The notes under the pieces: generated by a model
Seen by the model: only the letters and a program-made list of their open reading frames with translations
What the model was told of the DNA's origin: nothing
The model's database searches: none
Position numbers and translations under genes: made by a program
Virus record (IMG/VR): IMGVR_UViG_3300034101_000961
Location: 1-55,929 of that record
Length of the DNA stretch: 55,929 nt
Reading direction: 5' to 3' (one strand)
From: a virus
Part shown: positions 4,606 through 55,466 of the stretch, piece by piece
How positions within the stretch are numbered: the first letter of the stretch is position 1
Layout of the letters: each line of letters starts with the position of its first letter

Positions 4606-4606
4606 T

Positions 4607-5164: not shown

Positions 5165-5180
5165 GTCTTTAAAATAAATA

Positions 5181-5219: not shown

Positions 5220-5247
5220 TAGGTTATATGATTCTACTTGTATTCTA

Positions 5248-6387: not shown

Positions 6388-6416
6388 TTTTTGTTTTATT
6401 TAAATTGTGAAAATAA

Positions 6417-7148: not shown

Positions 7149-8113
7149 ACAGAAGCTATTTTCTTAGTTTTTAATTTTCCTTCCAAGGTTAATAATTCGT
7201 CTTGGTTATCTTCATCAGCAAGGAATTTAACTAAATCATCTTCATCCTTAGCAATCTCAAATTCACCTTCGTACACCTTACCATTAGGTTTTAAACGATA
7301 TACTGAGTGAGCGATAGCTTGCTTAACCAAGTCTTTAATATGGAGTAAGTTTTCCTTCATATCTGCAAATCTGCTGAACACCTCTACAGGGTTTAAACCA
7401 GCATGTTTACCATTCTTGAATTCTGTTTGTTTTAATAGGTTATCTACCTGATTGTATACAGATTCTTCTTTAGTGTCTTCTGTAACAGGTAATCCTAACA
7501 ATCTTGCCACTTTACGCTTCTTCTCTGGAGTCATTGCATCAAACTTGACAATAGCCTTGTTGATCAATTGTTTCTTCTTGAATATCACTGCATTCTCAAT
7601 TTCATCATCAGCAACGTAAAATTGTGTATCTGCAGGAACTTCACCACGCTCCCAAGCCTGATAGCTAGAGGCAATTGTTGGATGAACTCTCAACCAAGCA
7701 AATGCTAATTCCTGAAAAGGATTAGAGAAATCAAAGTAGTTATCACCATCCATTAACTTAACAGCTTGTACATGTAATGTATCATCTGTAGATGTAGACA
7801 ATCCATAGTTCCAGAAACTAGAACGAGGACTTAAATCAACATCACCTAACGCAGATTCAAGTTTTTTCTTAAGTGCTGTAACTCTTTCAACTTCCATTTC
7901 TCTTTCAAGACTGTCACCCATTCTACGAATGTATGCAGCATTTGGATCTAATCCAGTTCTGTACTGACCATCAAGTTCCTTGTAAGGATACTTAAATACA
8001 CCTGTTCCAGGGATCCTGGTTAAACCTTTTTGTGCAAGACCACCTTGCATGGTTTGCAACTGAGAGTTGTTGTAATCTTTCTTTAGTGTAGAGATTTTTC
8101 CTATCTTACCCAT
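7145..8113 (-). CDS. Head-associated structural protein (putative)
   Basis: 322 residues beginning MGKIGKISTLKKDYNNSQLQ. Mostly helical with charged stretches (EREMEVERVTALKKKLESAL, about 71-90) and an acidic C-terminal third ending in a basic KLKTKKIASV. No known catalytic motifs. It is the first gene after the major capsid gene, separated from it by a structured 160-base spacer (8114-8273). Its A-rich leader AACAAAAACAACTACAT precedes the ATG. Probably a virion protein. Confidence 0.65.
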   Translation of the reverse strand: MGKIGKISTLKKDYNNSQLQTMQGGLAQKGLTRIPGTGVFKYPYKELDGQYRTGLDPNAAYIRRMGDSLEREMEVERVTALKKKLESALGDVDLSPRSSFWNYGLSTSTDDTLHVQAVKLMDGDNYFDFSNPFQELAFAWLRVHPTIASSYQAWERGEVPADTQFYVADDEIENAVIFKKKQLINKAIVKFDAMTPEKKRKVARLLGLPVTEDTKEESVYNQVDNLLKQTEFKNGKHAGLNPVEVFSRFADMKENLLHIKDLVKQAIAHSVYRLKPNGKVYEGEFEIAKDEDDLVKFLADEDNQDELLTLEGKLKTKKIASV

Positions 8114-8145
8114 ATGTAGTTGTTTTTGTTTGGTTTATTTTTGCA

Positions 8146-8249
8146 GATGGGTTCTCAGCGAAGAGAGTGCGATACAGACACATAATCTGTACCCATCCAT
8201 CTGTGTGAGAAGACTCCCCCACTTGGAGCAGTGGGGGGGAATTCTTCTC
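8146..8249 (-). ncRNA. Structured spacer RNA downstream of the capsid gene
   Basis: Two stem-loops in tandem. GATGGGT (8146-8152) pairs with ACCCATC (8191-8197) and encloses a small ACAGA/TCTGT hairpin. GAGAAGA (8207-8213) pairs with TCTTCTC (8243-8249) and encloses CCCCCACT/AGTGGGGG. There is no T-run after either on the minus strand, so this is not a simple terminator. It may stabilise the capsid mRNA 3' end or set expression of the next gene. Confidence 0.5.
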
Positions 8250-8273
8250 GGTAGGTTATGCCTAATCGTTAGA

Positions 8274-9827
8274 TTAGAATTGTGGTATTTCTTCAATTAA
8301 CACTGTACGTGATAAATCTTCAATGAATACATCACAACGGTCTTTCATCCAAATCTCATAACCAGGGAATTTGTTCGCAGAACTCATACCTTGAGACTTA
8401 GCAAAACCTAAGTGGTGACGAGTTCCATCGATATAACCCCAAGTCATTGAAGGAGCACCCTTCATACGTACTTCACGGATGTTGTTAACCATTGAACCAT
8501 CGCTCATAGGAGATACATCAAACACCATGAATACAGGAGTAGATTTTTTGTTCTGACCGAATTCTAAGTTAGTTTGAGGAAGGTCTAATTCTTTTAAGTG
8601 AATTAGTTCAACACGACCTGTTTCACGTGTAACCATTGCATCGAATGCAAAGTTGTAAGTGATGTGTTGACCTTCTCCTTGCATGTAGCGATTACCAGAA
8701 TCAGCCATGAAAGTTAAACCAGAATTAAGTGCATCATTTTTAAGAGCTTGTTGGAACACATCGAAACCAGCTTCGTTAGTGTACATTTTAACTCTACGAT
8801 CCTTAACATCCACACGACGGTAGAATAAGTCACCAAACACTGAACGAATCAAGTTTGCAGTGAACTCACCACGGTTGTATTGTACTAAGTTACCGTTGTT
8901 ACGCATTCTGTGGTATACACCAGCAGATGTACGCTTTAATTCTTGCTTAGAACCATTAGTCTTCACGGTACCAGGCTTAGCCCAGATCATACGCTTAACT
9001 TTTAATTCTAACATAGATTTACGCATCCAGAACTCAATAAATGGTTCCCATTTAACATCGTTACGAGTTAAAGGTAATTGGTTACGTCTTTGTGGAGCAT
9101 ATACTAAGATGTCAAGAGGCTTACCAGAAGCATCACGCATCATTTTATCATCAGCCCATTCAGTGATCTTGTGCTCATAACCATATGCAGAACCTAAAGA
9201 TTCAAACATAGTGATTTGCTCACCTAAACGAGGAAGACCTAATAAGTCTTGATCGAATTCACCGATAGCAGCATCAACTAATTCTAGTTCGATACCAGTT
9301 TGTAAGAAAGTAGCACTTACGTAATCTACTTGAGGGTTGTCAGTCACAAGAGTGAAAGAGTACAAGAAACCAGCGTTCCAAGGAATAGGATCTTTGATAA
9401 CGTAGAAACGAGGACCATACTGACGAGTACCTACAGAAACAATAGCGTTCTTAGAGAACTCATTTGTGTCAATTACAAGAGAAAACTCTTGACCATCGAT
9501 ACCTGGCTTATCTAGAGCTAGAGTGCTATCAGGGATGTCAATGATTTTAGGGAATTTGTAAGGAACTTGTACTTGCCACTTCCAAGCATCACTGTTATTA
9601 TCGATATAGTAAGGAGTAGACTTGTTAATCATGTCTAGGAAGTCATTACTGTAAAGAGAACTCTGAGTGTACAAACTGATAATCTTCTTATCATAATCTG
9701 CTGGCTCAGTTGAGTGAAAGCTTTCCAAGTGGTTAGAATCTGTCAACTTACCTACTGCACGCTTGTCCATAGAAGCAACACGAGCATACGTAAAGCCAGT
9801 TAAACCTGGAATTGTTTGAATTGCCAT
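8274..9827 (-). CDS. Major capsid protein (HK97-fold, inferred)
   Basis: 517 residues beginning MAIQTIPGLTGFTYARVAS. No signal peptide, no low-complexity region, few Cys. It lies directly downstream of the acidic coiled-coil scaffold and in the same operon as terminase and portal, the standard place for the major capsid gene, and its length suits HK97-fold capsids of large tailed phages. The run of strands and helices (KDPIPWNAGFLYSFTLV; ELKVKRMIWAKPGTVKTNG) is compatible with that fold but I cannot show it. A structured RNA spacer follows the stop. Capsid identity rests on gene order and length. Confidence 0.78.
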   Translation of the reverse strand: MAIQTIPGLTGFTYARVASMDKRAVGKLTDSNHLESFHSTEPADYDKKIISLYTQSSLYSNDFLDMINKSTPYYIDNNSDAWKWQVQVPYKFPKIIDIPDSTLALDKPGIDGQEFSLVIDTNEFSKNAIVSVGTRQYGPRFYVIKDPIPWNAGFLYSFTLVTDNPQVDYVSATFLQTGIELELVDAAIGEFDQDLLGLPRLGEQITMFESLGSAYGYEHKITEWADDKMMRDASGKPLDILVYAPQRRNQLPLTRNDVKWEPFIEFWMRKSMLELKVKRMIWAKPGTVKTNGSKQELKRTSAGVYHRMRNNGNLVQYNRGEFTANLIRSVFGDLFYRRVDVKDRRVKMYTNEAGFDVFQQALKNDALNSGLTFMADSGNRYMQGEGQHITYNFAFDAMVTRETGRVELIHLKELDLPQTNLEFGQNKKSTPVFMVFDVSPMSDGSMVNNIREVRMKGAPSMTWGYIDGTRHHLGFAKSQGMSSANKFPGYEIWMKDRCDVFIEDLSRTVLIEEIPQF

Positions 9828-9861
9828 TTTGTTATTTTTTTAATTAATGTTTATAAATTGT

Positions 9862-11121
9862 TTATTGAAACCATGAAGTTGTAGGCTTGGGCTTATTTCC
9901 TGTTTTTGTAGAACTTTTGCTAACTTGTCTAGCAACTTCACCAAACAATTCATTTGACTTCTTGGTGATACCAGTCTTTTGTATTGTAGATAATGTAGGA
10001 TCCTTTTCTAAAATCTTTAATAAAAGTCCAAACTTAACCTTTGTTGCATGGTTTTCTGGACGCTTAAGTTCTAGAATAGTTTTGTCAAAATCTGTGAGAG
10101 TCTCACCAGATGCTGTCTTATACTTATCTACTAACAGGAAATCTTGTAGTTCACCAGCCAATTTAGGGTTCAGAGGAATACCGTCAAACTCTTTTGCTTT
10201 TAGTTTTTCTTGTAATACAGACTGAACGTTCTGAACATATTGTTGTTTAACAGCAGCTTGCTGTTGTAATCTCTTTTCATTCTCTTGCTCCATTTGTTGA
10301 AGCTTTGCAGCTTCCTTCTTAACCAACACTTTGTGGTGTTTTGTAGCAACAGTTTCCAAATCACCGTAATTCTTAAGTCTTTCAACTTCTGTTGTAACAT
10401 CCTCAGGATCAAATCCTTGATCAGCTAGGGCCTGTTTAATTACTGCAACTTGGTTAGTTTCGTCTGCTAAATCCATCTCAGCGAAACTCTTTATATTATT
10501 ATAAGTACCGAAATACTCTTTTGGATCTACTCCTTTTACAAATATGGCATCAAATGCTTGTTGATAGTCTTCTCCAAATTGACCAATGAAGTTGTTTACC
10601 ACCTCAATAGCTCCTTTCTTTTTCTCAGCTTGGAAACGCTCAAGGAATTCTTCTGGAGTGGAGATTGCAACTTCTTCTTCATCTTCATCTTGGGTAAATA
10701 CACCAAGTTTGAAAAGGTCTTTAGAAAGAGATGTGAATGGACTAGCTGGTTCATCACCCTCTGTTTCTTCATCATCTTCTGTATCTGCAGGAGCTTTTGC
10801 TTTAGGAGCTGGAGCAGGAGAATCTTCATCCTCTTCCTCTTCATCATCTCCACCTAGTAAAAAGTCCTGTAAAGACTTTGTCTTATCTTCTTTATCTTCC
10901 TCATCATTCTCTTCTGGAGCAGCAGCAGGAGCTGTTGTCTTCTTTGCAGGTTTAGCTGCAGGAGCAGGTTCATCTTTAATATCTTGAATATCATCAGGAT
11001 TGGTAGTAGAAGTCTCAGGAGCAAATAAGTCACTTAAAAGCTCTTGGTTTCCCATGCCCATTTCCATAGTATCTTGAATACTAAAGTTTCCCATTGATGG
11101 GTTGTCTAGATTTTCAGCCAT
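9862..11121 (-). CDS. Capsid scaffolding protein
   Basis: 419 residues and strongly acidic. Residues about 45-130 alternate Asp/Glu runs with Ala-Pro-Lys linkers (GGDDEEEEDEDSPAPAPKAK). The middle is helical, a Gln/Glu/Lys coiled coil covers about 245-310 (KKEAAKLQQMEQENEKRLQQ), and the C-terminal tail is basic (KSSTKTGNKPKPTTSWFQ). An acidic, helical protein with a basic C-terminal end immediately upstream of the capsid gene is the typical scaffold arrangement; no protease motif is seen. It has its own promoter candidate at 11154-11184, which would boost scaffold and capsid synthesis. Confidence 0.8.
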   Translation of the reverse strand: MAENLDNPSMGNFSIQDTMEMGMGNQELLSDLFAPETSTTNPDDIQDIKDEPAPAAKPAKKTTAPAAAPEENDEEDKEDKTKSLQDFLLGGDDEEEEDEDSPAPAPKAKAPADTEDDEETEGDEPASPFTSLSKDLFKLGVFTQDEDEEEVAISTPEEFLERFQAEKKKGAIEVVNNFIGQFGEDYQQAFDAIFVKGVDPKEYFGTYNNIKSFAEMDLADETNQVAVIKQALADQGFDPEDVTTEVERLKNYGDLETVATKHHKVLVKKEAAKLQQMEQENEKRLQQQAAVKQQYVQNVQSVLQEKLKAKEFDGIPLNPKLAGELQDFLLVDKYKTASGETLTDFDKTILELKRPENHATKVKFGLLLKILEKDPTLSTIQKTGITKKSNELFGEVARQVSKSSTKTGNKPKPTTSWFQ

Positions 11122-11153
11122 ATGTAGTTTGTTTTATTATTGGTTTTCAGGTG

Positions 11154-11184
11154 TAAAAGTATATTATTATAAATTAATACCAAA
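11154..11184 (-). promoter_or_regulatory. Promoter candidate for scaffold-capsid genes
   Basis: Minus strand TTTG (11184-11181), 19 bases, TACTTTTA (11161-11154): a near match to the Bacteroidota TTTG/TAnnTTTG promoter (last G replaced by A). It lies in the 121-base spacer before the scaffold start at 11121, where extra transcription of the most abundant virion protein would make sense. Confidence 0.5.
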
Positions 11185-11242
11185 GAGGTAGTGCATTATA
11201 CGAACCATTATTCACGATAATATAGCATTAATGTAATTCACT

Positions 11243-11773
11243 CTAATCAAGATTGTTTGTAATTGTGTCATTTATTAACCTAAAGCTCTTAATTGGAGCC
11301 AGATCAGTGAGTGTAACTTGTTGAATTTCAACACCCCACTTCCTTGCTTCAACCCTTACCTTCTTAGTTAATGTGTTATCAAGTTCTGCATCCGTACATT
11401 CTTCCAGGGACATAGACATGATTACATTTTTTATGACACTTTGTGACATGTCAGCTATTGCATCTTGGGCATCAAACACTTCTAACAGGAATGTTTTCAC
11501 ATCTGATATCTTGTATTTGATTACACCCTTGACAACAATGTTCTGTCTATCACTAGTATACAAAGATTGTGCTGGAAGACTTAGTGTTGTAATAACGACA
11601 TGTTGGTCAATCACCTCATCTACAAATGGTATCTTTGGGTGGAACCCAGGTTTTAACACCTTTTTAAATTTACCAAATCTTAGAAGGACTGCCTCCTCGT
11701 AATCCCTGATAATAATACCAGGGAGTACGTCTGAGCCAAATTGTAACACAACGTCAATCAGCCTATCTAACAT
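11243..11773 (-). CDS. SPFH/band 7 (stomatin-prohibitin-like) protein
   Basis: 176 residues. The SPFH pattern is clear: IIRDYEEAVLLRFGKFKKVL (about 21-40), KPGFHPKIPFVDEV (about 41-54), then SLPAQSLYTSDRQNIVVKGV (65-84), a helical segment, and KVRVEARKWGVEIQQVTLTD (138-157), which matches the end of the SPFH core. It lacks the long coiled-coil tail of most stomatins and has only a weak hydrophobic N-terminus. SPFH proteins form membrane-associated rings. It sits between portal and scaffold, three bases from the portal gene, an unusual place. Family assignment is firm; role in assembly is unknown. Confidence 0.88.
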   Translation of the reverse strand: MLDRLIDVVLQFGSDVLPGIIIRDYEEAVLLRFGKFKKVLKPGFHPKIPFVDEVIDQHVVITTLSLPAQSLYTSDRQNIVVKGVIKYKISDVKTFLLEVFDAQDAIADMSQSVIKNVIMSMSLEECTDAELDNTLTKKVRVEARKWGVEIQQVTLTDLAPIKSFRLINDTITNNLD

Positions 11774-11775
11774 AA

Positions 11776-14361
11776 TTACTTAGTTTTCTTACTCGCTCTG
11801 TTCTTAGCATTCTCTCTAGCAATAGCTAAATCATTTGCTTGGTTCTCTCTAGCCACTTGTAATTTCTCTCTTTCAACTTGTAGTTTCTGAGCAGCTAATG
11901 CATTTTTAGATTGAATATCATTCATCTTTGCCTCATAATCTTTAGCAGCTCTTGATTGCTCAAATGCTAACCTATTGATTTCCAACACATCAGGAGTTCC
12001 AGATTCGTCTATATCAGACAATGGACCTGATTTTGCTTCAGCAGCAATGAGTGCAATCTCTTTCTTATTGATTCTATCAAGTTCCTTCTGATAGTCATCA
12101 TGAGCCAATTGTTTCTCTTGAGCTTCTTGAGCTTGTTGGATTTGAGCCATAGCTTGTTGTTGCTGTTGCTCCATTTGTTGCTGTTGCATATCCAACTGTT
12201 GTTGTTGCATAGCATCTTGTTTATCCTTGAGGCTCTTGAACACCTTCTTCATCTTACGTACAGAATCAGTGCTGTAAAGTTCAATGATGTCATGTAATGA
12301 ACCACCATTTTGTATAACAGCTTGAGACAATCCACGTAATTCGTTAAACATCTTCTGATCTTCAGGACGATTGGTTAAGAACACCTTAAGGTCACGAAAT
12401 CTGAGATCAGTTCCATTTACCTGTACGAAAGCAGACTCTCCATCAGATGTAATGTATGATAGGGTGGATTGTGGTTTCTTAGATTCCACATATAAAGCAG
12501 CATCAATGATAGCTTGGTACAACTGACCAAGAACATACTCATGAGCTACGAATAAAGGTTCTGTTTGAGAATAAGACTGTGTGATAGCTGTGTTTGTACC
12601 TGTAGCACTCTCACTAGCTGATATAGATCCCATTCTTTGTTTAGACATACCTACAAGTTCCCAACACTCTTGCTTAAGCTGCATAGCTAATGTGTAACGA
12701 GATTGAATCTCCTGCGTACGTGTAAGGTCAATATCTCTGAACTGGTTGAAGCTAGAAGGACTCTTTAAGTTCTCAGGAGAGTCATCAATAAATACAACCC
12801 CTCTGTTACGAGCTTCTAGTTCCCACATATCTAAAGCATCTTGAGCATCACCGTCCTTAGGAACAGGAATATGTCTGATAGATGTTAGATACACCTTACC
12901 AACTTCCTTCTCAAGAAGTGTGTAAAGCTGGTTCATACATACATTATATAGCACCTGGAACGGTTTCATTAAGTCTACTAAGCTCTTAGCTTCTGTATTC
13001 TTCACCTCATGAACCAATCCAATGATAGGACAATAGCTTAATAATTTGTAAGGTTTGATGTGATAGATGTCTGGACCAATCTTAATACCCTGATACCATT
13101 GGTTAATCCAACCCCATTCTAGAGAAACTTCTGTAGGGATTGTCTTACTCTTATAGTTTTCATCAACAAGCATAGATTGCTCATTACCCATCTCATCTAA
13201 GTAGATTAGTTTACCAATCTTCTTCTTAGAGATCCAATAGGCTCTAACAACAACATACTTATAACCAAATGAGCTCACATTAGATGTAAGTCCTAAGAAG
13301 TCCTTAAGTCCATCATCGTTCTCTTTCATCTCTGATTCAATGATCATTCTTGTTTGTAGAACAAGAGGATCGTATGTATCATATTGTACTGAGTCAATAC
13401 CAGGTGTCGCATCTGGATTACCAAGATTTGACTCACGTACGTTGATCAAACCATAGTCTTGTAAAGAACTACGTAAGTGATCAATCTCTTCTTTAGTTAA
13501 GTCAGGGATAGCCTCGATGATTTCAGATAGTTCCATAACTTGTACAATACCAGCAGCATAAGCTCCTTGTGCTCTACCTGTAGGATCTGAAACATACTTT
13601 CTATCTGGTGTAGTGAGGAACCAAGTGTTCTTAGGGTTAGCCACCTCAATGTTAAATCCAAGTTTAGAGTTGTCCTCATATATATGATAGAACTCTCTAG
13701 CTGAAATTAACATATCTCTGAAGGCATCTTCTGATTTCTCCTTAAGATTAAACTCTGCCTTCTGACATGTAAGAATGTGGTTAGCCCATTTCTCAGCAAT
13801 AGATGTGTAGCTATCTAGCTCATCTTTCACTTGATCCATTGTCATTTGCTGAACCTCTTCTTCTTCTAACTCCTGTCCATTTAACTGAGCTTGATTTAAA
13901 ATCTTTTGTTTAGCCTGATTGATAACGTATTCCTGCAGAATACCAGTTTTGAATTCTAGTTCTTCAGCTTGACTATCATCATCAAATGCCTTCACACGGA
14001 AAGCATCTGGTCTCTTAGAGATCTCACCAACTAACTCATTAAGAGGAGTGGTGATGATAGAATACATCTTTACATATGAAGGAAGGTTTAAGTTAGCCTC
14101 AAGAGTTTGTGTAAAGCTACTTACAACAGGCTCTTGATAGAAGTCCTCCATACGCAAAATACCCTTGACAAGATCATAGTTCTTAACAAAGGTGTCTCTG
14201 TTCTTCACATACTCAGCGTATGATTTGTTGGCAAAATAGTCCATTGTGTTTTTAATCCAACTCTCATCTTGCTTCTCCTTCTCAGTTTTAAACTGATCTG
14301 GAAATATATTTAAATATGCATACCTAATTGTAGCATCTTTTGTATACCGTATAATTGCCAT
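11776..14361 (-). CDS. Portal protein
   Basis: 861 residues, very long for a portal but in the range seen in crAss-like and T7-type phages. It begins MAIIRYTKDATIRYAYLNIF. The N-terminal and central parts are the portal body, with features such as SYVKMYSIITTPLNELVGEI (about 94-113) and a Trp-rich middle (SLEWGWINQWYQGIKIGPDI). A Gln-rich stretch lies at about 715-742 (QQQQLDMQQQQMEQQQQQAM), followed by charged coiled coil to the C-terminus. Its start codon overlaps the terminase stop (TAATG). Identification rests on place next to terminase, size and helical C-terminal barrel-like region. Confidence 0.82.
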   Translation of the reverse strand: MAIIRYTKDATIRYAYLNIFPDQFKTEKEKQDESWIKNTMDYFANKSYAEYVKNRDTFVKNYDLVKGILRMEDFYQEPVVSSFTQTLEANLNLPSYVKMYSIITTPLNELVGEISKRPDAFRVKAFDDDSQAEELEFKTGILQEYVINQAKQKILNQAQLNGQELEEEEVQQMTMDQVKDELDSYTSIAEKWANHILTCQKAEFNLKEKSEDAFRDMLISAREFYHIYEDNSKLGFNIEVANPKNTWFLTTPDRKYVSDPTGRAQGAYAAGIVQVMELSEIIEAIPDLTKEEIDHLRSSLQDYGLINVRESNLGNPDATPGIDSVQYDTYDPLVLQTRMIIESEMKENDDGLKDFLGLTSNVSSFGYKYVVVRAYWISKKKIGKLIYLDEMGNEQSMLVDENYKSKTIPTEVSLEWGWINQWYQGIKIGPDIYHIKPYKLLSYCPIIGLVHEVKNTEAKSLVDLMKPFQVLYNVCMNQLYTLLEKEVGKVYLTSIRHIPVPKDGDAQDALDMWELEARNRGVVFIDDSPENLKSPSSFNQFRDIDLTRTQEIQSRYTLAMQLKQECWELVGMSKQRMGSISASESATGTNTAITQSYSQTEPLFVAHEYVLGQLYQAIIDAALYVESKKPQSTLSYITSDGESAFVQVNGTDLRFRDLKVFLTNRPEDQKMFNELRGLSQAVIQNGGSLHDIIELYSTDSVRKMKKVFKSLKDKQDAMQQQQLDMQQQQMEQQQQQAMAQIQQAQEAQEKQLAHDDYQKELDRINKKEIALIAAEAKSGPLSDIDESGTPDVLEINRLAFEQSRAAKDYEAKMNDIQSKNALAAQKLQVEREKLQVARENQANDLAIARENAKNRASKKTK

Positions 14362-16388
14362 TATGTAAAAAGTTTACGTTTTCTATTATTAAATATTCCT
14401 CTTGATGTAGAAAATAAAGGGTTCTTTGGTGTTCCTGCGTACATTGCTTTCAATCTATCATCACTAGACCCACCAATCTTTCCAAATATAGGATCCATCT
14501 TAAGTGCTTGAGCGATAGCTAGTTCTGCAGCAATGATACGGTCAAAGTTACCTGAGTCATTGTACTGAATAACTTCTTCAAGTAGTACAGGATCAAATAT
14601 CTTACTCACACCCAACACTTCTCTTACAGTCTCACCAGCTTCATTCGTCTCCTTATATATCGTTCCTTCCAAATACTTCTTCAAGCAGTTGTGAAGATAG
14701 TCAATTATCTTCTGACTTGAACGATGAATTCCATACTCACGTTTAACCGTTGTGTTTGGAACAATCTCCATAAGCCATTGAGGTTGCTTTTCTAAATAGT
14801 GAGCATCTCCTTTAGCTTTCATATATTCTATAAATGATATATCATCATTCTCACAAAGCGTTCTAGCATTGTAATATTTGATGAGTAAGCGAGCTTGTTC
14901 TTCCCAAGTTTCCTTCTTCTCAGGTCTAGCACAATACGAAGCTACGAACATATCTTGATATTTCTCACCTGTTAGGTCATGCATTCTTTTATAAATATAC
15001 ACAGATCCTAACGAGCTTGAATATGCAGATTGTCCTTGTCTATAAGGATCGACCCCAGCTACATATAATCCATATGGAGGATTATCAATAGGGAATTCAT
15101 ATATAACAACAGGAGCATCTTTCTGATCACTATTCTTAAGAGGGAAGTTAGATATAGGGAGCTTATCTGTAAACTCGTGACTTATCTTCTCTCCATCATT
15201 GAATAATATAATAGGTGTACCTGTTCTTTCTTGTTGTAATAGTTTGCTCTTCTGCCTTTTAGCAGCCTCAATGTCAAAGATGTTTGTATCTTCATTGAGG
15301 AATATGTCATCCACTTCCTGTGGGTAGTACATCTTTTCTTTTAGATAGGCAACTCTATCACCAGCTTTCTTAAGTCTTTCTAAGTTTTGCACAGTGATTT
15401 GGTCAGCCTTCTCTTGGTCACTTACCAGCATCTCAATCTTATGTAAGTCAGATGTGTAAGGTTCATTTAGGAAAGCTCCGAGTGTACTCTTATCCTTAGC
15501 CTCCATTCTATACTTATTAGATATAAAGAGTCCATGTATACGAGCTGTGTCTTTCTCATTATTATATGTAAGGAAATTGAAGTTGTCTACATCGAACATT
15601 AAGCTCTTTGCATCCATGAACTTCTTCATATCACCACCTGTACCTGTAAGGATTGGAGAACAACCCCAACCAAATGGTGTAGTGAAACCTGGAATTGCAG
15701 CTTGCAATCCACGTAAGAAACTTCCTTTACCTATCTCATCAATGATGAGCTTTCTAGGTTTTGTACCTGCGATAGCTTCCTCATTATTACCTTCATCAAG
15801 GTTACGAATTAGGATGGAAGAAAAAGGGATACGTTCTCCAGACTTAGTCTTGATACCAAGGGTCACTTGGTTTTTCCAGTTATCCTCAATTCTCTGCCAT
15901 CTCCAATATTCTGGAATGAAGTTAAGCCCCTTATCAATCTTATCTGTGATAAGCTTAATATCTGGAGCGTTCAAACCAGCAATAATGTTTTGTGAGTTTT
16001 CATCAAATGTTGCACCCCATGCAATATAAGATGCCTCAATAACGGACTTAGCAAAACGTCTAATACCTAGAATGACTAAGCCTTTTCTTTCTTTCTGTGC
16101 TCTGTCAATTTCGTTTGTTACCAGCCATTCGTTATCACGTAATAAAGGATTAGCATATTTCTGTGCAATCCTTCCATACTCATCAATAATATCCACCTCT
16201 GTATGCCATATGTTTAGGTGCCAATATAAAAAGGGGTTGATATATACACCCCCCATCATACAACCATTTAAACATAGGTCTTTGTGAAAATCATAGAATG
16301 CCTTATATTCCTCAGATGCTCTGTCTGGCAGACGCTTCTGATTAATAAACCAGTCTTTGTAATCTATACTCTGTACGTGTACACTCAT
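14361..16388 (-). CDS. terL: Terminase large subunit
   Basis: 675 residues from the ATG at 16388, which lies one base after the preceding gene's stop; an upstream in-frame ATG at 16424 would overlap that gene by 35 bases and is less likely. ATPase motifs: Walker A-like LGIRRFAKS (about 107-115) and Walker B KLIIDE (about 213-218). Nuclease motifs: GVDPYRQG (about 444), an acidic CENDD cluster and a late FDRIIAAELAIAQAL with the third metal-binding Asp. This is the packaging motor that cuts and pumps DNA through the portal. Strong assignment. Confidence 0.95.
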   Translation of the reverse strand: MSVHVQSIDYKDWFINQKRLPDRASEEYKAFYDFHKDLCLNGCMMGGVYINPFLYWHLNIWHTEVDIIDEYGRIAQKYANPLLRDNEWLVTNEIDRAQKERKGLVILGIRRFAKSVIEASYIAWGATFDENSQNIIAGLNAPDIKLITDKIDKGLNFIPEYWRWQRIEDNWKNQVTLGIKTKSGERIPFSSILIRNLDEGNNEEAIAGTKPRKLIIDEIGKGSFLRGLQAAIPGFTTPFGWGCSPILTGTGGDMKKFMDAKSLMFDVDNFNFLTYNNEKDTARIHGLFISNKYRMEAKDKSTLGAFLNEPYTSDLHKIEMLVSDQEKADQITVQNLERLKKAGDRVAYLKEKMYYPQEVDDIFLNEDTNIFDIEAAKRQKSKLLQQERTGTPIILFNDGEKISHEFTDKLPISNFPLKNSDQKDAPVVIYEFPIDNPPYGLYVAGVDPYRQGQSAYSSSLGSVYIYKRMHDLTGEKYQDMFVASYCARPEKKETWEEQARLLIKYYNARTLCENDDISFIEYMKAKGDAHYLEKQPQWLMEIVPNTTVKREYGIHRSSQKIIDYLHNCLKKYLEGTIYKETNEAGETVREVLGVSKIFDPVLLEEVIQYNDSGNFDRIIAAELAIAQALKMDPIFGKIGGSSDDRLKAMYAGTPKNPLFSTSRGIFNNRKRKLFT

Positions 16389-49031: not shown

Positions 49032-49494
49032 AACAGCTATAATTGGTAAAAATGTTATTATAGAAGATGATGTTTATATAGGTCCTTATTGTATTATAGG
49101 AATGCCTCCTGAATGGAAAGGAAGAGAAAATGAAGATAAAGGTGTTTTAATTAAAAAAGGATCAAGACTGACAGGACTTGTTACAGTTGATTCTGGAGCG
49201 GATAAACAAACGATAATAGGTGAGAATTGCTATCTCATGAAACATTCACATGTTGGACATGATGCAACCCTAGAAAATAATGTAACACTATCTTGTGGAG
49301 CAAAGATAGGAGGTCATTCTATTATTGGAGAATACACAAATATTGGACTGAATGCTGTAATTCATCAAAAGATATCTATACCAAGAGGTTGTATGATTGG
49401 AGCCAGTGCGTTTGTTGGAAAGAAATCATTATTAAAACCAAATTATAAATATGCTGGAGTTCCAGTTAAAGAGATAGGGAAAAATGAACGCTAG
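49015..49494 (+). CDS. Left-handed beta-helix acyltransferase (LpxA/hexapeptide type)
   Basis: 159 residues built of hexapeptide repeats: IGKNVIIEDDVYIGPYCIIG, IIGENCYLMKHSHVGHDATL and IGGHSIIGEYTNIGLNAVIH, with two candidate His residues (KHSHVGHD). Hexapeptide enzymes acetylate sugars or lipid A precursors. Sits inside a glycosyltransferase pair with overlaps on both sides, so it likely modifies the same glycan. Confidence 0.85.
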   Translation: MIHLDKTAIIGKNVIIEDDVYIGPYCIIGMPPEWKGRENEDKGVLIKKGSRLTGLVTVDSGADKQTIIGENCYLMKHSHVGHDATLENNVTLSCGAKIGGHSIIGEYTNIGLNAVIHQKISIPRGCMIGASAFVGKKSLLKPNYKYAGVPVKEIGKNER

Positions 49495-50116
49495 GATAAC
49501 TGTTAGTCTACCTTGTTTTGGTAGACCTTTAAGAACAAAAAGGTCTATTGAATGTATTATTAATCAAAACATTAATAACTGGGAAGCATTTATTATGGGC
49601 GATCATTGTCCACATTTTCAAGAACTAATAGATAGTGGTTATCTTGAAACTATAAAACAAGAGCAAGCACTTAAAGGAAACATCATTCATTATTTTAATG
49701 CTGAAGTTAATGGAGGAGGTTGTGGATATAAGCTTACAAACTATGCTATTCAAAATGCTACAGGAAAATATTTTATATTTTATGCTAATGACGATATCAT
49801 TTTTGAAGATCATTTTAGCAATTATTTAGAAATAGAAAACACAGACTTAGATTATATGTTTTTTAATTCTTGGATAGATCCTATTGGTAAAGCTAGAAAT
49901 TCAACAATGGCTCCATCTCAGATAGGTCATAGTGAGATAGTATTAACAACAGAGCTAGCAAAACAATTACCAGAACATTTACCAATATATGGACATGATT
50001 GGGAATTTATAAGTGCTATGTTAAAACAAGGAAAAGGCGAAAAATCAAAAAGTAACACTCTATCTTATAGAGTCATGCATGTACCAAGTTTTGGAACAAA
50101 AGATGAGATAAACTAA
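49484..50116 (+). CDS. Glycosyltransferase, GT2/GT-A
   Basis: 210 residues. Starts MNARITVSLPCFGRPLRTKR with the GT2 N-terminal strand, RSIECIINQN helix, then IFYANDDIIFEDHF (about 104-117) with the metal-binding DD. Ends before the bidirectional terminator. Works with its neighbours; substrate unknown. Confidence 0.85.
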   Translation: MNARITVSLPCFGRPLRTKRSIECIINQNINNWEAFIMGDHCPHFQELIDSGYLETIKQEQALKGNIIHYFNAEVNGGGCGYKLTNYAIQNATGKYFIFYANDDIIFEDHFSNYLEIENTDLDYMFFNSWIDPIGKARNSTMAPSQIGHSEIVLTTELAKQLPEHLPIYGHDWEFISAMLKQGKGEKSKSNTLSYRVMHVPSFGTKDEIN

Positions 50117-50151: not shown

Positions 50152-50292
50152 TTATTTTGATAATTTCTTACCAGTCATAGGAGCCATAGGGCTCTTACCT
50201 TTATTTCTAGTATTATCTGATTCCTTCATATAAGGCTTGTTGGGCTTAGGGTTTTTAACCTTAGGAGCTAAACGTGGTTTACCTGATTTCAT
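50152..50292 (-). CDS. Small basic protein, 46 aa
   Basis: Reads MKSGKPRLAPKVKNPKPNKP and ends MAPMTGKKLSK; Lys/Pro-rich, no fold visible. Its start overlaps the stop of the 173-aa gene (TAATG). Probably a small virion- or DNA-associated peptide; inferred from composition and neighbours. Confidence 0.62.
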   Translation of the reverse strand: MKSGKPRLAPKVKNPKPNKPYMKESDNTRNKGKSPMAPMTGKKLSK

Positions 50293-50813
50293 TAGCAACC
50301 ATATTTACATTTTCCCATAGACTTACCCATCTTAGCTTTACCACCAGATTTCTTCTTTTCAATTTTTTTCTTCAACTTATCTAAAGAAGGCACCTTGTCA
50401 AAACTCTTTTTGTCAAAGTTCATTCCTTTTGGTCTTGCCTTAGATACTGAATCACTAGGTGCAATATAGTTTTTACCAAGAACAGAAGCTTTGTCTAAAG
50501 ACTTAGCCATATCATCAGTACGTTTGTTTTGAGCAGCTTTTGTCATCTTTGTACCAGATTGTGCTTTCTTAACTTTCATACCATGCTTAGCTGCAGGAGC
50601 AGATTTAGCAGCTTTCTTTTCAGCTCTTTCAGCTTGACGTTCTTCACGACCAGCTACTCTCACAGCTTTTTTATAATCACGTTCAGCCACTCTAGCTTCT
50701 TTGCGTTCAGCACGATCAGCACCTGATGTAGTTGCAGCACAACCACCACGGTACCCACCTTTTTTTATAGGAGCTCCAAATTGAGCCTTTTTAACTTTTT
50801 TAACAGTTGCCAT
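50292..50813 (-). CDS. Lys/Ala-rich KKAQxG protein
   Basis: 173 residues, rich in Lys, Ala and Arg. N-terminal MATVKKVKKAQFG and internal MKVKKAQSG carry the KKAQxG motif shared with two neighbours. Contains a long charged helix (RAERKEARVAERDYKKAVRV) and a Cys pair at the very end (GKCKYGC). Histone-like composition fits DNA binding or capsid interior. The motif may be a packaging or cleavage signal; function unknown. Confidence 0.65.
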   Translation of the reverse strand: MATVKKVKKAQFGAPIKKGGYRGGCAATTSGADRAERKEARVAERDYKKAVRVAGREERQAERAEKKAAKSAPAAKHGMKVKKAQSGTKMTKAAQNKRTDDMAKSLDKASVLGKNYIAPSDSVSKARPKGMNFDKKSFDKVPSLDKLKKKIEKKKSGGKAKMGKSMGKCKYGC

Positions 50814-50831
50814 TTTTATAATTTTAAATTG

Positions 50832-51362
50832 TTAGCATTTCCATTTACGCAAAGACTTATTAATCCTACTGTTAGGGTCATTTGCTGTCTTAGAACTTGT
50901 GAGTTTCTTTTTCATACCTGACATCCTAGCACAGAATGATTTCTTTCTAGGACCACCTTCAGGTTGAGGAGCTTTAAGACCAGGCTTGCCTGGATTAGCT
51001 CTATTATATGAGGCTCTTCCTTTAGCGTTTAAACCACCAGAAGGATTTTTACCTTCTTTTCTTTGCCATGCTGGTGTAGAACCACCATTCTTTTGTTTCT
51101 TTAGTCTATTTTCTCTACCTTCTCTAACACCTTCAATCTCTTGCCAATTATCAAAAACACTAGCGTTACCTCCTTTTACACCTCTTTTATATCCACTTCT
51201 ATATAGTGCTGAATCTATAGAACTAGGTTTTTTACCACTTGGTACAGGTCTATCTATATATTTATATTTTGTAGGGGTGGTACGTACAGGATCTATAATA
51301 GGTTTTTTAACTCTAGTATTATCAACTTTACTACCACCTTGAGCTTTTTTAATCCTAGCCAT
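50832..51362 (-). CDS. Lys/Gly-rich KKAQxG protein
   Basis: 176 residues from the ATG at 51362 (MARIKKAQGGSKVDNTRVKK); an in-frame upstream ATG at 51458 would overlap the next gene by about 95 bases and is rejected. Basic and Gly/Lys/Asn-rich, with a repeated RKEGKNPSGGLNAKGRASYN stretch (PSGGLNAKGR is common in such phage proteins). Ends with Lys/Arg. Part of a series of unordered basic proteins; likely a DNA-binding virion component. Confidence 0.65.
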   Translation of the reverse strand: MARIKKAQGGSKVDNTRVKKPIIDPVRTTPTKYKYIDRPVPSGKKPSSIDSALYRSGYKRGVKGGNASVFDNWQEIEGVREGRENRLKKQKNGGSTPAWQRKEGKNPSGGLNAKGRASYNRANPGKPGLKAPQPEGGPRKKSFCARMSGMKKKLTSSKTANDPNSRINKSLRKWKC

Positions 51363-51363
51363 C

Positions 51364-51762
51364 TTATTTCTTTTTACCTTTGTACTTGTAATCAGGGTTG
51401 TCTTTGTGCCACTTCTTTGTAGAAGCAACACCTTGTTTAACAGTCTTTGCTCTACCAATCTTAGTGAGATTGATTGTATCCCATTTACCTTTATCTTTAG
51501 TAGGGTGGTTTACAACTATGTCTCCAGGTTTAGCTTTAGCTGTTTTCTTTGTGGCTTTATAAACTACATGTTTTTCTCCACCAGCTGTAACCTTCACCTT
51601 ACCACCATCTTTTAATGTAGAGCCTTTAAACTCTCCCTTCTTTTTAACAAGAGGACCATTAGGAACAGGAGTGATTTTACCACCAGCTCTAAGAACTCCC
51701 TTACCTACATAAGCTTCTGCTTTCTGTGGGTTATACACCTTGGTCTTAGGAATTCTAGGCAT
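51364..51762 (-). CDS. Basic protein, 132 aa
   Basis: Begins MPRIPKTKVYNPQKAEAYVG. Lys/Gly-rich with KTAKAKPGDIVVNHPTKDKG near the middle and a tail ending DYKYKGKKK. Located between two KKAQ-type genes, one base from the next. Structure unknown; probable virion basic protein. Confidence 0.62.
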   Translation of the reverse strand: MPRIPKTKVYNPQKAEAYVGKGVLRAGGKITPVPNGPLVKKKGEFKGSTLKDGGKVKVTAGGEKHVVYKATKKTAKAKPGDIVVNHPTKDKGKWDTINLTKIGRAKTVKQGVASTKKWHKDNPDYKYKGKKK

Positions 51763-51763
51763 G

Positions 51764-51925
51764 TTATTTACCTTTACGCTTTGCAGTTATTTTCTTGAAT
51801 GTTTTAGCAAGAGCTTTAGCCTTACCTGTACAACCAGGCTTAGTAATAGGAGTGCATTTGCCTTCTGTACCTCTAGCCTTAATAGACTTAGATACCTTCT
51901 GCATCCACTTTTTATCTGTAGCCAT
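51764..51925 (-). CDS. Small basic protein, 53 aa
   Basis: Reads MATDKKWMQKVSKSIKARGT, then EGKCTPITKPGCTGKAKALA and ends with Lys/Arg. The two Cys and pattern KWMQKVSKSIK...KC.PITK.GC are found in related phages. It starts on the stop of the upstream gene (TAATG). Function unknown. Confidence 0.65.
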   Translation of the reverse strand: MATDKKWMQKVSKSIKARGTEGKCTPITKPGCTGKAKALAKTFKKITAKRKGK

Positions 51926-52443
51926 TATTTTTTCTTTTTCATTTTACCACCAGATTTCATCTTTGTAGCACCTAACTGCTTGTCCTTCTTAAGACTTACA
52001 GAAGTTTTAACATTACGAGGAGGTAAGTTCATTTCTTGAACCTTAGTCCAAGCACCTTTAGGATCAACAGGTCCTACACGCTTGTTAGAAGCTTTTAATC
52101 CAGCCTGAGCTTTCTTAATCTTGCCACCATTCTTAATAACACCACGTCCTTTAAGGATGTCAGCTTTAGTAATCTTACCATCCTTGTTTAAGTCTGGGAA
52201 TGATTTACCGTTTTTAGCACTCTTAGCTTCTGCCATAGTTCTAGCTTTAAATGCAGGTAGGTCTTCCTTAGGTGAAAGAGAATCATAAATTTCACTACCA
52301 CGTTTTCTACGTGTAGCTCTTAACTTCATGCGTTCTGCTACTTCTTTAGCTCTTTCAGGATTTTTCTCTGCAATTCTACCAAGTCTTTTCTTTTGTCTAC
52401 CTGTAATACGATCACCGTATTGGGCTTTTTTAATAGTTGCCAT
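51925..52443 (-). CDS. KKAQxG protein with EF-hand-like loop
   Basis: 172 residues beginning MATIKKAQYGDRITGRQKKR. KKAQYG at the N-terminus and KKAQAG at about 113. Residues about 84-95 read DLNKDGKITKAD, a textbook EF-hand/dockerin calcium loop (D, N, D, G, I, D at 1, 3, 5, 6, 8, 12). Ends GGKMKKKK. A calcium-binding, basic protein in a virion-type operon; role unknown. Confidence 0.68.
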   Translation of the reverse strand: MATIKKAQYGDRITGRQKKRLGRIAEKNPERAKEVAERMKLRATRRKRGSEIYDSLSPKEDLPAFKARTMAEAKSAKNGKSFPDLNKDGKITKADILKGRGVIKNGGKIKKAQAGLKASNKRVGPVDPKGAWTKVQEMNLPPRNVKTSVSLKKDKQLGATKMKSGGKMKKKK

Positions 52444-52448
52444 TTTAT

Positions 52449-52529
52449 TTATATATTAGATTGTTCTAGACATTTAGGACATTGTCCTTCCTCAAGAGCT
52501 ATTTCATGTATGGAGCAATGATCGTTCAT
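52449..52529 (-). CDS. Tiny Cys protein, 26 aa
   Basis: Reads MNDHCSIHEIALEEGQCPKC then LEQSNI; C.....H and CPxC could bind a metal ion. Its ATG shares bases with the stop of the upstream 55-aa gene (TAATG), which argues for translation despite the size. Confidence 0.45.
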   Translation of the reverse strand: MNDHCSIHEIALEEGQCPKCLEQSNI

Positions 52530-52696
52530 TACTTGCTCTTAGCCTTGATTTTCTTTTCCTGCTTAAGCATAGCAGACGTAGGTTTCTTACCAGGTTTACC
52601 AGCAGCTTTATTCTTTTTAGCTGCAGCACGGATGTTATCCCATAATCCTCTTTGAGAGGTGGAACCATCAGCACGTTTTATCATTTCTTTTGCCAT
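52529..52696 (-). CDS. Small basic protein, 55 aa
   Basis: Reads MAKEMIKRADGSTSQRGLWD, then NIRAAAKKNKAAGKPGKKPT and ends KIKAKSK. The pattern GLWDNIRA...GKKPT..MLKQEKKIK is one I associate with phages of Bacteroidota. Lies next to the 95-aa gene. Confidence 0.65.
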   Translation of the reverse strand: MAKEMIKRADGSTSQRGLWDNIRAAAKKNKAAGKPGKKPTSAMLKQEKKIKAKSK

Positions 52697-53050: not shown

Positions 53051-53332
53051 TTACATGGTGATATCAAACACTATTGTGGCAGAACTCTTTATACTTTTAG
53101 ACAGATCTAAATGGATCTGTAAGAGGTTATGAAACTTCAATAACTCTTCTAGCAGCATGTCATTATACCTGGGTATAGATGGTGCTAGTCTAAAGTGATA
53201 GGAATTGGGATTCCTAGTAATTTCTAATGTGGCTAACTCATCCACAGATGATATAATTCCCTCAAGGTGTGCAAAATAAGCTATTTCATTATCTTGCATC
53301 ACCTGAGGAAAGAATTTCTTGTTAATCTGCAT
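53051..53332 (-). CDS. Hypothetical protein, 93 aa
   Basis: Begins MQINKKFFPQVMQDNEIAYF. The pattern FRLAPSIPRYNDMLLEELLKFHNLLQIHLDLSKSIKSSATIVFD (here given in parts: NSYHFRLAPSIPRYNDML, LQIHLDLSKSIKSSA) recurs in phages. Overlaps the Dps-like gene by one base. Unknown. Confidence 0.62.
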   Translation of the reverse strand: MQINKKFFPQVMQDNEIAYFAHLEGIISSVDELATLEITRNPNSYHFRLAPSIPRYNDMLLEELLKFHNLLQIHLDLSKSIKSSATIVFDITM

Positions 53333-53736
53333 TAAGACAAGGTTAATAAGTATTTAGTTTTTGCTGCTTCTCCAGATAATGCATCTGCTAAATTAGCTAT
53401 ATCGTGATAGCTGTTTGCTTCACCATAGCTTTTTAATGAAGATGCAAAAGATAAAAGATTTGAAACACACTCATTCCCTGTACAATTTATAAGAGGTTCT
53501 ATCTTATATGGAGCAGGACGTTTACCTGTATACCCCATGATCTTCTCAATTACACCATCTTTAAAGTCTTGTACATATTCATATAGTTTCCCAAGAGCTT
53601 TGTGTTCAGCATAACTAGTTGTTTGCCAATGAGTTAAATGTAATTGCTCATGAAAATACGTAAGCTTTCCAGCTATTGTTTCTAAATTTAGTTCTCCTGA
53701 TTTCATCATCTCATCAGGGAATAATGATTTTGCCAT
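53332..53736 (-). CDS. Dps/ferritin-like protein
   Basis: 134 residues. The first helix pair follows the Dps pattern: LTYFHEQLHLTHWQTTSYAE (about 25-44), HKALGKLYEYVQDFKDGVIE (about 45-64), with His, Asp and Glu residues that could bind iron at the subunit interface. A later Cys pair (CTGNEC) and a C-terminal helical part. Related to the phage family DUF5856. Might protect DNA from oxidants or be part of the particle. Fold likely, function inferred. Confidence 0.78.
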   Translation of the reverse strand: MAKSLFPDEMMKSGELNLETIAGKLTYFHEQLHLTHWQTTSYAEHKALGKLYEYVQDFKDGVIEKIMGYTGKRPAPYKIEPLINCTGNECVSNLLSFASSLKSYGEANSYHDIANLADALSGEAAKTKYLLTLS

Positions 53737-53747: not shown

Positions 53748-54227
53748 TTAAGGAGCTGCAGTAGTTGTAGTAGTGGTTGTACTAGTACTAGTAGAAGTAG
53801 TAGTTGTTGTACTAGTAGATGATGTAGTGGTAGTAGTTGTATTACTAAAACTTACTTCAGGACTTAAACCAGAACACTCACAACCAGCTCCTGCTGTAAT
53901 AACTGTTGTAGTTCCTGATGCATCTACTGCAGATACAGAACCAGTTACAGCACATATAGTAGTTACTAATAAATTAGTACCAACTAAATTTACAGTTTGT
54001 GTGCTGTTGTCAACACCAGATCTGTAAGTGATAACACTTGATAGAGCACCTGAAGCAGTTGCTACAACTTGATAAGAGGTACCGCCACTGTTGCACTCAT
54101 ACCCTTGTACTTGTTGCCAGTTGCCTACCTTTGGTTTGTTTCTACGCAGTATTAAGCTACCTGCAACTACTCTGCCACTACCATCATAGCGGACATAAGC
54201 TTTAAGATCACGATTGTTACTTCCCAT
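53748..54227 (-). CDS. Virion protein with C-terminal Thr/Ser tract
   Basis: 159 residues. Starts MGSNNRDLKAYVRYDGSGRV; the first 125 residues look beta-rich (RVVAGSLILRRNKPKVGNWQ; NNLVTTICAVTGS-like) with scattered Cys. The final 30 are Thr/Ser, ending TTTAAP, nearly the same as in the tail-region proteins. Directly next to a glycosyltransferase gene. Confidence 0.72.
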   Translation of the reverse strand: MGSNNRDLKAYVRYDGSGRVVAGSLILRRNKPKVGNWQQVQGYECNSGGTSYQVVATASGALSSVITYRSGVDNSTQTVNLVGTNLLVTTICAVTGSVSAVDASGTTTVITAGAGCECSGLSPEVSFSNTTTTTTSSTSTTTTTSTSTSTTTTTTTAAP

Positions 54228-54244
54228 TTTTTAAATTTTTATGG

Positions 54245-55261
54245 TTAATAGTTAAGGTTATATTTGTTTTTTAATTCTATTAGTTGTGATGTATAATAGT
54301 GAGTGCAATACTTCTGACTGTTCTCATTATTCATAACTGTTTGTAAATGAGGATCGTCGAAAGGATCTTGTCCTGTGTGATACTTTCCTTTATAGAAAGC
54401 AGGGTACCCATTGGCTTCATCACCAACAATTCCTGCGTTATGTAAGAGTCCTGTTCTCTCTAGTTTCTGAATTGGATCAGAAGACCAAGCAAAATCCATT
54501 TCAGGAATAATCTTCGCTTTTTGATTCCTATACCAAATAGCCCAGAGAACAGCCCACATATCAGCACACCAACTTTGAAAGCCTTTATTTTCATTCTCGA
54601 AGAATTCTCTGTTTATGTTTAGTAAATGTGTTCTAATTACCAAACAGTCTTGCAACACCTTGTCCCAGAAATCACTATCGATGTTCTTTAATAGGTATTG
54701 TGCTCCTCCTGAATGCTCATTGTTAGCTTCAGCTATCTCTCTAGTTATGCCTGTAAGTTCTGCTGTTTCAGCTAGAATGTCTCTAGTCTTATACAACTCA
54801 AGCTTTTCAGGCTTTACATCCTTCACTTTACTATCAAAATATGAAGCGTTGATATAACTGTTTGTATCAGATACATAGTTTACATCATCATCCAGATAAG
54901 CATCTATATTTAGATTCTCTGTAAACACTACGTCTGAATCACAATACATAACAGCTTTATCTTTCATCCCTGGATTCTCTGCAAAATATCTTTTCAAACA
55001 ATAAGGACGCAACACAGGAATGTAAACTCCTAACATGTTACTAATCTTGTGCTCATCTTTGTAGAATACAAATTCAGCTTCTGGATAGAGATCTATCACT
55101 TGCTGCCACTTGGTATTCTTTTCCCTATAACTAGGAATGAATATAAGCACAATTGCTTTGTCTGAATGTCCAATTTTCTTTAAGCTCTCTATCCATAAAT
55201 GTACCTGCCATGTGTAATAGGTATCATCTGGTTGAGCACAGATAAATCTGAGATCCTTCAT
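54245..55261 (-). CDS. Glycosyltransferase between two Thr-tract genes
   Basis: 338 residues beginning MKDLRFICAQPDDTYYTWQV. Features: an N-terminal YTWQVHLWIESLKKIG, DKAVMYCDSDVVFTEN (about 102-117) with a DxD metal motif, and later WCADMWAVLWAIWYRNQK. The layout recalls glycosyltransferases that act on protein hydroxyl residues (peptidyl serine galactosyl/hydroxyproline arabinosyl type), though similarity is weak. It lies between the 159-aa and 58-aa Thr-tract genes, in the same direction. Leader CAAAACTACATATATG. Best candidate for modifying those tracts. Confidence 0.78.
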   Translation of the reverse strand: MKDLRFICAQPDDTYYTWQVHLWIESLKKIGHSDKAIVLIFIPSYREKNTKWQQVIDLYPEAEFVFYKDEHKISNMLGVYIPVLRPYCLKRYFAENPGMKDKAVMYCDSDVVFTENLNIDAYLDDDVNYVSDTNSYINASYFDSKVKDVKPEKLELYKTRDILAETAELTGITREIAEANNEHSGGAQYLLKNIDSDFWDKVLQDCLVIRTHLLNINREFFENENKGFQSWCADMWAVLWAIWYRNQKAKIIPEMDFAWSSDPIQKLERTGLLHNAGIVGDEANGYPAFYKGKYHTGQDPFDDPHLQTVMNNENSQKYCTHYYTSQLIELKNKYNLNY

Positions 55262-55289
55262 ATATGTAGTTTTGTTGGTTTTGTTTTAT

Positions 55290-55466
55290 TTACGGTGTAG
55301 CAGTTGTAGTTGTAGTTGTAGTACTACTACTGCTACTAGTGGTTGTAGTAGTGGTAGCAGGAATATTCCTACCCATCACTCCTGTAAGCCTTTCTAATTG
55401 CTTAGATATGTTCCAAAGTAGTTTAGCCTTTTGGCTCCAGCCTATTTGTTGAGAAGGTATTGCCAT
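55290..55466 (-). CDS. Small Thr-tract virion protein, 58 aa
   Basis: Reads MAIPSQQIGWSQKAKLLWNI, SKQLERLTGVMGRNIPA, then about 20 Thr/Ser ending TTTATP. The IGWSQKAKLLWNISKQLERL motif is a common N-terminal module of Bacteroidota-phage virion proteins. It lies between the glycosyltransferase gene and the jelly-roll fibre gene. Fifth Thr-tract protein in the window. Confidence 0.7.
   Translation of the reverse strand: MAIPSQQIGWSQKAKLLWNISKQLERLTGVMGRNIPATTTTTTSSSSSTTTTTTTATP

Follow-up and report, generated by a model that had tools for sequence, protein, structure and literature searches.

The closest described counterpart of the locus reported here is the glycosylation of mycobacteriophage virions. 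Specifically, glycans are reported at the C-termini of capsid and tail-tube subunits of these phages (Freeman et al. 2023, cited in PMC12619734). The likeness lies in phage-encoded glycosyltransferases and in C-terminal glycans, which are reported there and would be expected here. In addition, Corndog and other cluster O mycobacteriophages carry glycosyltransferase genes within the structural operon, and the authors suggest capsid modification (PMC4351075). Those genes sit between the portal and protease genes, unlike the gene considered here.

Che8, presumably one of the glycosylated mycobacteriophages, permits a comparison of sequences. Its major capsid protein (MCP) and major tail protein (MTP) end in NKTGS and YSDGS, without Thr runs, and are thus unlike the poly-Thr tags described below. 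Of its three annotated glycosyltransferases, two match the Pfam GT2 model, one of them below cut-off, and the third matches GT25, whereas the enzyme here belongs to an unrelated, predicted GT-A family whose PHROG 4417-family profile hits none of the three (Che8 1-16000 and 50000-59471 were covered). GT8-type enzymes, such as glycogenin, LgtC and the UGGT catalytic domain, are similar to this enzyme in their GT-A fold and DxD motif, but differ in sharing only ~10% identity with it and in that it has no Pfam or NCBIfam match. GT8 enzymes are retaining and use UDP-sugars, and glycogenin, too, attaches sugar to a hydroxyl group of a protein.

Within the CC-licensed PMC literature, we recognised nothing on poly-Thr tails of phage proteins or on the PHROG 4417 enzyme; PMC6821194 treats low-complexity regions in general, and a passage on poly-threonine in it concerns polysaccharide-binding proteins. 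An earlier, sequence-only reading of the locus had named it as a candidate for an undescribed system. This claim was too wide, since phage virion glycosylation is published (cited in PMC12619734), and what was not found described is the enzyme family together with the poly-Thr tail. We propose that the purpose is the same as in mycobacteriophage virion glycosylation, and that the different enzyme family and the portable homopolymer acceptor are the new part.

A predicted glycosyltransferase among Thr/Ser-tailed proteins

The stretch of DNA analysed, hereafter the window, is a 55.9-kb virus record in which the tract genes and the enzyme gene lie on the minus strand. The gene order given by the sequence-only reading, a 58-aa tract protein, a glycosyltransferase with a DxD motif and a 159-aa tract protein, corresponds to ORFs that lie exactly there. 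In the direction of transcription, the 58-aa ORF (55290-55466) is followed by the gene for a 338-aa protein (54245-55261), the 159-aa ORF (53748-54227) and an adjoining DUF5856 gene (53332-53736; Pfam PF19174, E 5.4e-15) that was used as a synteny anchor. The 58-aa protein has an N-terminal module and a C-terminal Thr/Ser tail (55293-55355) composed of T6 S5 T7 ATP, and it ends ATTTTTTSSSSSTTTTTTTATP. The 159-aa protein carries a 30-aa C-terminal Thr/Ser tail (53751-53840) that ends T7 AAP.

Three more Thr-tract proteins had been placed at 2139-6387, and all are present on the minus strand, two with C-terminal tracts and one with an internal tract. A 379-aa protein (5248-6387) flanked by two virion-protein homologs has a C-terminal Thr/Ser tail (5251-5322) ending TSTTTTLIP, and a 136-aa protein (2685-3095) has a 40-aa C-terminal tail (2688-2807) ending T7 IP. 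In the 177-aa protein (2139-2672) the tract is internal (2370-2450), includes T7 AAP and is followed by a Cys-containing C-terminal domain. Among window ORFs of at least 50 aa, real or not, homopolymer runs with a length of exactly seven number four, and all are Thr; two Ser runs (8 and 9) exceed them. The Thr codons of the tracts are mixed (ACA, ACT and ACC), much like those of seven other window genes, and in the 5248-6387 tract they are ACA and ACT only. This mixed codon usage indicates that the window tracts are a protein feature rather than a DNA repeat or microsatellite. Elsewhere in the window, positions 50292-52696 hold a row of small Lys-rich ORFs with alike N-termini (MATVKKVKKAQFG, MATIKKAQYG).

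The 338-aa protein matches PHROG 4417 over residues 5-320 (E 4.3e-56). This family is listed as of unknown function, and we propose one here. Searches of Pfam and NCBIfam with the protein gave no match, and among 30 PHROG 4417 members none matched a Pfam glycosyltransferase model at E<=1, GT8 included. The acidic pair of a DSD motif at residues 108-110 (VMYCDSDVVF) is conserved: D108 and D110, together with H274, G277 and K291, do not vary across 21 aligned sequences (that of the window and 20 others, down to 25% identity), and D108 and D110 are likewise invariant in a 30-sequence alignment.

The structure prediction that the sequence-only reading had called for gave a GT-A fold (AlphaFold2 with 30 aligned sequences; mean pLDDT 94.8, pTM 0.92). 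The closest fold to the model is that of glycogenin (Z 14.7, rmsd 3.6 over 232 residues; VIA-align), and the next neighbours are the UGGT catalytic domain (Z 14.0) and LgtC (Z 13.9). Foldseek neighbours are mostly GT-A enzymes as well, the best neighbours among viral models are an uncultured Caudovirales protein and Lactobacillus phage LP65 Orf49, and a sequence search of solved structures with the enzyme returned nothing useful. By its predicted model, then, the 338-aa protein has a glycosyltransferase fold of the GT-A, GT8-like type. Because no GT8 sequence profile matches it, we describe the enzyme as one that would work like GT8 rather than as a GT8 member; its GT8-like fold suggests that it is probably retaining and alpha-linking. 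The hydroxyproline/serine class suggested by the sequence-only reading (HPAT/SERGT, GT95/GT96) is not supported: no such sequence match was seen in Pfam or NCBIfam, the 30 family members match no Pfam glycosyltransferase, the nearest folds are GT8-type, and no HPAT or SERGT name is among the 50 best fold neighbours listed.

A second, unrelated glycosyltransferase of family 2 type (210 aa; 49484-50116, plus strand; Pfam PF00535, E 3.2e-05) lies ~4 kb from the cassette. It is a possible partner that could lengthen the glycan. One related record (G017) has a 97% homolog, and none was seen in the stretches examined of two others (G861 and G862).

Enzyme and tails in the window lineage and other phages

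The terminase large subunit (TerL) of the window phage shares 40% identity with its counterpart in Leptolyngbya phage Lbo-JY46, 32% with the one in Cellulophaga phage phi4:1 and 29% with the one in csAssE-Sib. For its portal, terminase and head protein the PHROG matches are 6547, 6681 and 11589, and its MCP matched Lbo-JY46 only, at 1e-5. We take phi4:1 and csAssE-Sib to be crAss-like phages, and on these sequence similarities the window phage is tentatively placed with them. Its host may be a bacteroidete or a cyanobacterium.

Relatives were defined as the 21 records of at least 80 kb among the best 80 of 497 TerL loci. The enzyme is encoded in 19 of these 21, and 18 of the 19 have an (ACN)7 tract; in the remaining one, G861, the homolog of the 5248-6387 protein carries a T6 tail. 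One relative, G862 (115 kb), has neither the enzyme nor an (ACN)7 tract, and retains the DUF5856 neighbour and a homolog of the 159-aa protein. This homolog is 139 aa long and lacks the tract. Furthermore, the G862 homolog of the 5248-6387 protein (68% identical) stops at GALGTVTTI, where the window protein continues into its tract. The other enzyme-less relative, the 91-kb record G865, has 19 tract sites and no DUF5856 gene, and the absence of this neighbour suggests that the enzyme region is probably missing from the fragment. Two relatives at a greater distance are in line with this pairing: neither the enzyme nor a T5 run was found in the whole genome of Lbo-JY46 (three stretches) or in 50 kb of phi4:1.

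The tract genes had been read as virion genes. This holds best for the 5248-6387 protein, which is flanked by homologs (4607-5164 and 6417-7148) of two phi4:1 proteins that are on record as structural from MS/MS, and it agrees with the tagged proteins of Bacillota phages, some of which are annotated as capsid or tail proteins. For the 58-aa and 159-aa proteins, a place on the particle is what we infer. In G861, a module like the N-terminus of the 58-aa protein (52% identity) heads a tail-less protein of 422 aa, and the N-terminal module of the 159-aa protein is followed by other sequence, without a tail, in a protein of 245 aa in all. Such modules with other sequence in place of tails are what a particle anchor whose outer ends can be exchanged would be expected to show.

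Contigs were also picked solely by the DNA of a T7-x-x-P-stop tail, and the 43 tested were the records of at least 19 kb among the best 80 of 119 matches listed. The PHROG 4417 enzyme is encoded in 29 of these 43 contigs, which are partly related to each other, versus 0 of 50 control records, which are unmatched for lineage. The controls were chosen by seven-codon runs from 160 rows listed, and comprise every one of the 39 poly-Asn records that reach 19 kb, with 11 poly-Ala records. By eye, 8 of the 14 tract contigs without the enzyme resemble fragments of the window lineage and 6 do not. These six (L155, L169, L182, L196, L205 and L207) may have another partner enzyme or none. In L169 the tailed ORF is 182 aa long and has a tape-measure-like ORF of 1059 aa nearby, and no PHROG 4417 enzyme was found there. 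Among 17 enzyme-free control records, three contain (ACN)7: that of G073 is mostly inside a simple repeat, G055 has one single-codon site, and G045 has three mixed-codon sites, which makes it a tract-bearing record without the enzyme and a candidate for another partner enzyme.

The same major tail protein can be compared with and without the enzyme. A search with only the body sequence of a Bacillota MTP, in 398 and 397 genomes, yielded 63 regions in which tail and enzyme were scored separately. Five regions are enzyme-positive (the query's own, L530, L579, L580 and L587), and all five are tailed on the MTP or MCP; L587, for example, has TTTSTTSA on its MTP and TTTTTTAAV on its MCP. A T5 run at the MTP end occurs in none of the 58 enzyme-negative regions (45 + 13), among them L529, whose body is 72% identical to the query and which has neither enzyme nor tail.

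A tree of MTP bodies was built from 41 rows of at least 140 bits, one per distinct body sequence, with the enzyme loci of bacterial genomes added. Enzyme-positive rows came mostly from the enzyme search and negative rows from the MTP search, and the tail was used for neither choice. A poly-Thr MTP end is present in 19 of 21 enzyme-positive rows versus 0 of 20 enzyme-negative rows, the rows being related to each other. The two enzyme-positive exceptions carry the tail elsewhere, on the MCP (L123) or on a small gene beside the enzyme (L103). The enzyme state changes 10 times on this tree, and at least four of the changes are forced by supported branches. Among the few independent pairs on supported branches, the tail goes with the enzyme in 2 of 4 and never in the opposite direction (p 0.5); when long branches are left out, it goes with the enzyme in about 4 of 5, again never the opposite (p 0.125). 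The co-occurrence of enzyme and tracts in relatives that the sequence-only reading had anticipated is thus borne out in the tract-picked contigs, the MTP homologs and the window lineage, with the exceptions given.

Named phages, prophages and bacterial loci

By tblastn, the enzyme occurs in 74 of 50,697 phage records, mostly of phages of Lactobacillus, Enterococcus, Staphylococcus and Lactococcus, and also in Chryseobacterium phage MA9V-3. It is further encoded in 270 viral stretches and at 49 loci of bacterial genomes. The enzyme together with long Thr tails on particle proteins is also found in many unrelated phages of other bacteria, and its gene adjoins a tagged gene in many genomes, whether viral loci, named phages or prophages. 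Among the best 80 of the 270 IMG/VR loci, 40 lack a strict tract gene that lies on their strand and no more than 1.5 kb away; some of these 40 are short fragments, and for most the surroundings of the locus only were covered. A search of four whole genomes (enzyme-negative or pattern hits) with alignment A2, run without a positive control, gave no match.

The gene ends of 14 of the 74 enzyme-bearing phage records were examined. In 11 of them, a capsid, tail or small protein encoded near the enzyme bears a run of at least five Thr, either at its C-terminus or close to it. As for the other three, MA9V-3 has internal runs, the Planchet tail protein ends TTTDPVTTTSTTRQ, and ENFP1 (L090) has TTV repeats only. 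Within one phage, alike tails are found on unrelated proteins. For example, a putative capsid protein of Lactococcus phage 1706 ends TTTTTTTTTHHD and its major structural protein TTTTTTTTTTHHD; the annotated capsid and tail proteins of iLp84 both end TTTTTTTSK; and the R9.1 proteins that match this pair, which are not named in that record, end TTTTTTTSHV. In 14 of 14 records the enzyme gene is next to a capsid, tail or tract gene (in ENFP1, the TTV-repeat gene), and where the neighbour is the capsid gene, the tagged gene is sometimes another one. In Enterococcus phage phiFL2B (GQ478085.1, L083), gp49 is the enzyme and is named 'major tail protein', and the tagged gp48 is called 'hypothetical'; gp48 may be the real tail protein, with the two labels swapped.

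At 39 of the 49 bacterial-genome loci there is an ORF with a run of at least five Thr. In typical Bacillota prophages the tail is on genes -6 (capsid), often -5 (small) and -1 (major tail protein), counted from the enzyme. The other 10 loci lack a T5 run, and at seven of them (L098, L105, L106, L108, L109, L114 and L126) the enzyme is a longer relative of 479-829 aa; the remaining three (L096, L099 and L143) are not such longer relatives. The longer relatives come from Bacteroidota-titled records. A scan of neighbours at L098, L100, L109, L114 and L126 found LANC-like proteins (L098, L109 and L114), C39-peptidase ABC transporters (L098 and L100), an ABC transporter (L114) and thioredoxin-like proteins (L109 and L126). 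Neighbours of these kinds suggest peptide-modification clusters, whose products are possibly glycosylated secreted peptides. At L100 (Sphingobacterium), an 81-aa ORF that ends T13-KAPAVIL lies five ORFs from the enzyme relative.

A stricter pattern, T6-xx-stop, has 8 sites in the 398 Bacilli genomes, and a single ORF of at least 40 aa ends in this way (L688). With no phage genes around it, this ORF looks spurious by eye. Since the pattern misses known tags such as TTTTGGA, it is too strict and says little.

Proposed sugar-coating of particles and its alternatives

The tails tend to accompany the enzyme and to be lacking in its absence, which suggests that these phages probably sugar-coat their own particles through the tails. 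Specifically, we consider it likely that a phage-encoded O-glycosyltransferase glycosylates virion proteins of the same phage on their poly-Thr tails. O-glycosylation of the phage's own Thr tracts had been the central claim of the sequence-only reading; co-occurrence, with its exceptions, and the predicted fold speak for it. The sequences show the genes and tags, the conserved motif, the predicted fold, and the association and joint absence of enzyme and tails, whereas catalysis, acceptor, sugar, exposure on the particle and benefit are parts that we infer. The enzyme would be a nucleotide-sugar-dependent GT-A glycosyltransferase active in the host cytosol during infection, and its acceptors would be the hydroxyls of Thr (and Ser) in C-terminal runs or linkers of particle proteins. 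The tract would serve as a portable tag appended to unrelated proteins: in Bacillota phages to the MCP, the MTP and small proteins, and in the lineage of the window to small and possibly fibre-like proteins, some of them encoded beside head genes. The outcome would be a particle with many short mucin-like sugar brushes, which may shield it from binding or from proteases, keep it soluble, or make it stick to surfaces.

An alternative is that the enzyme targets another substrate, such as a host surface glycan or phage DNA, and that the Thr tracts are independent flexible linkers that are common in the same genomes by chance. Phage glycosyltransferases for DNA and for host glycans are known (PMC12619734), some tracts are indeed internal linkers (2139-2672 and L082), and some tract-bearing records lack the enzyme. 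However, this explanation does not predict that the tail tracks the enzyme among homologs of one tail protein and within the window lineage, that the pairing recurs in Bacillota phages and the window lineage on unrelated proteins, or that the enzyme gene is next to a tagged gene in many genomes. We therefore regard it as unlikely.

It is less probable still that the tail is a docking site from which sugar is placed elsewhere on the same tagged protein. Two tagged proteins of one genome share a short genome-specific suffix, exactly in 18 of 30 cases versus 2.0 expected by shuffling, which resembles a recognition mark. Against docking, the long, variable make-up of Thr and Ser only suggests an acceptor rather than a docking motif, and suffix sharing is present in enzyme-negative prophages too and so is not specific to the enzyme. 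For this reason the use of suffix sharing as proof of enzyme specificity was dropped. In the enzyme-negative Bacillota prophages L575-L590, the capsid protein and major tail protein often end alike (PEGA/PAGA, EGV/AGV, PEV/PAV), and there something besides the enzyme is keeping the two ends alike. Finally, repeat slippage without a partner enzyme, to which the difference in tract length between relatives might point, is highly improbable given the mixed codons of the window tracts, which form no DNA repeat, and the absence of tracts from enzyme-negative homologs.

Returning to glycosylation of the tails, we lean towards a broader formulation as well, in which the PHROG 4417 enzyme and a C-terminal poly-Thr tail would form a self-contained tagging cassette. 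Such a tail could be placed on any protein and glycosylated in the bacterial cytosol without a lipid carrier or secretion. The cassette would be common to several Bacillota phage types and to the tentatively crAss-like lineage of the window, and bacterial cousins of the enzyme would modify small secreted peptides, the Sphingobacterium T13 protein being a candidate.

These proposals assign a function and a substrate to a phage protein family that had none, and they predict that cultured phages such as Lactococcus phages 1706 and bIL285 bear sugar on particle proteins. Sugar-coated particles bear on phage persistence, clearance and engineering, and a short O-glycosylation tag that can be transplanted would have uses of its own. 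If true, the pairing described here would represent a general route by which phages arrive at sugar-coated particles, and would provide a ready-made glycosylation tag.
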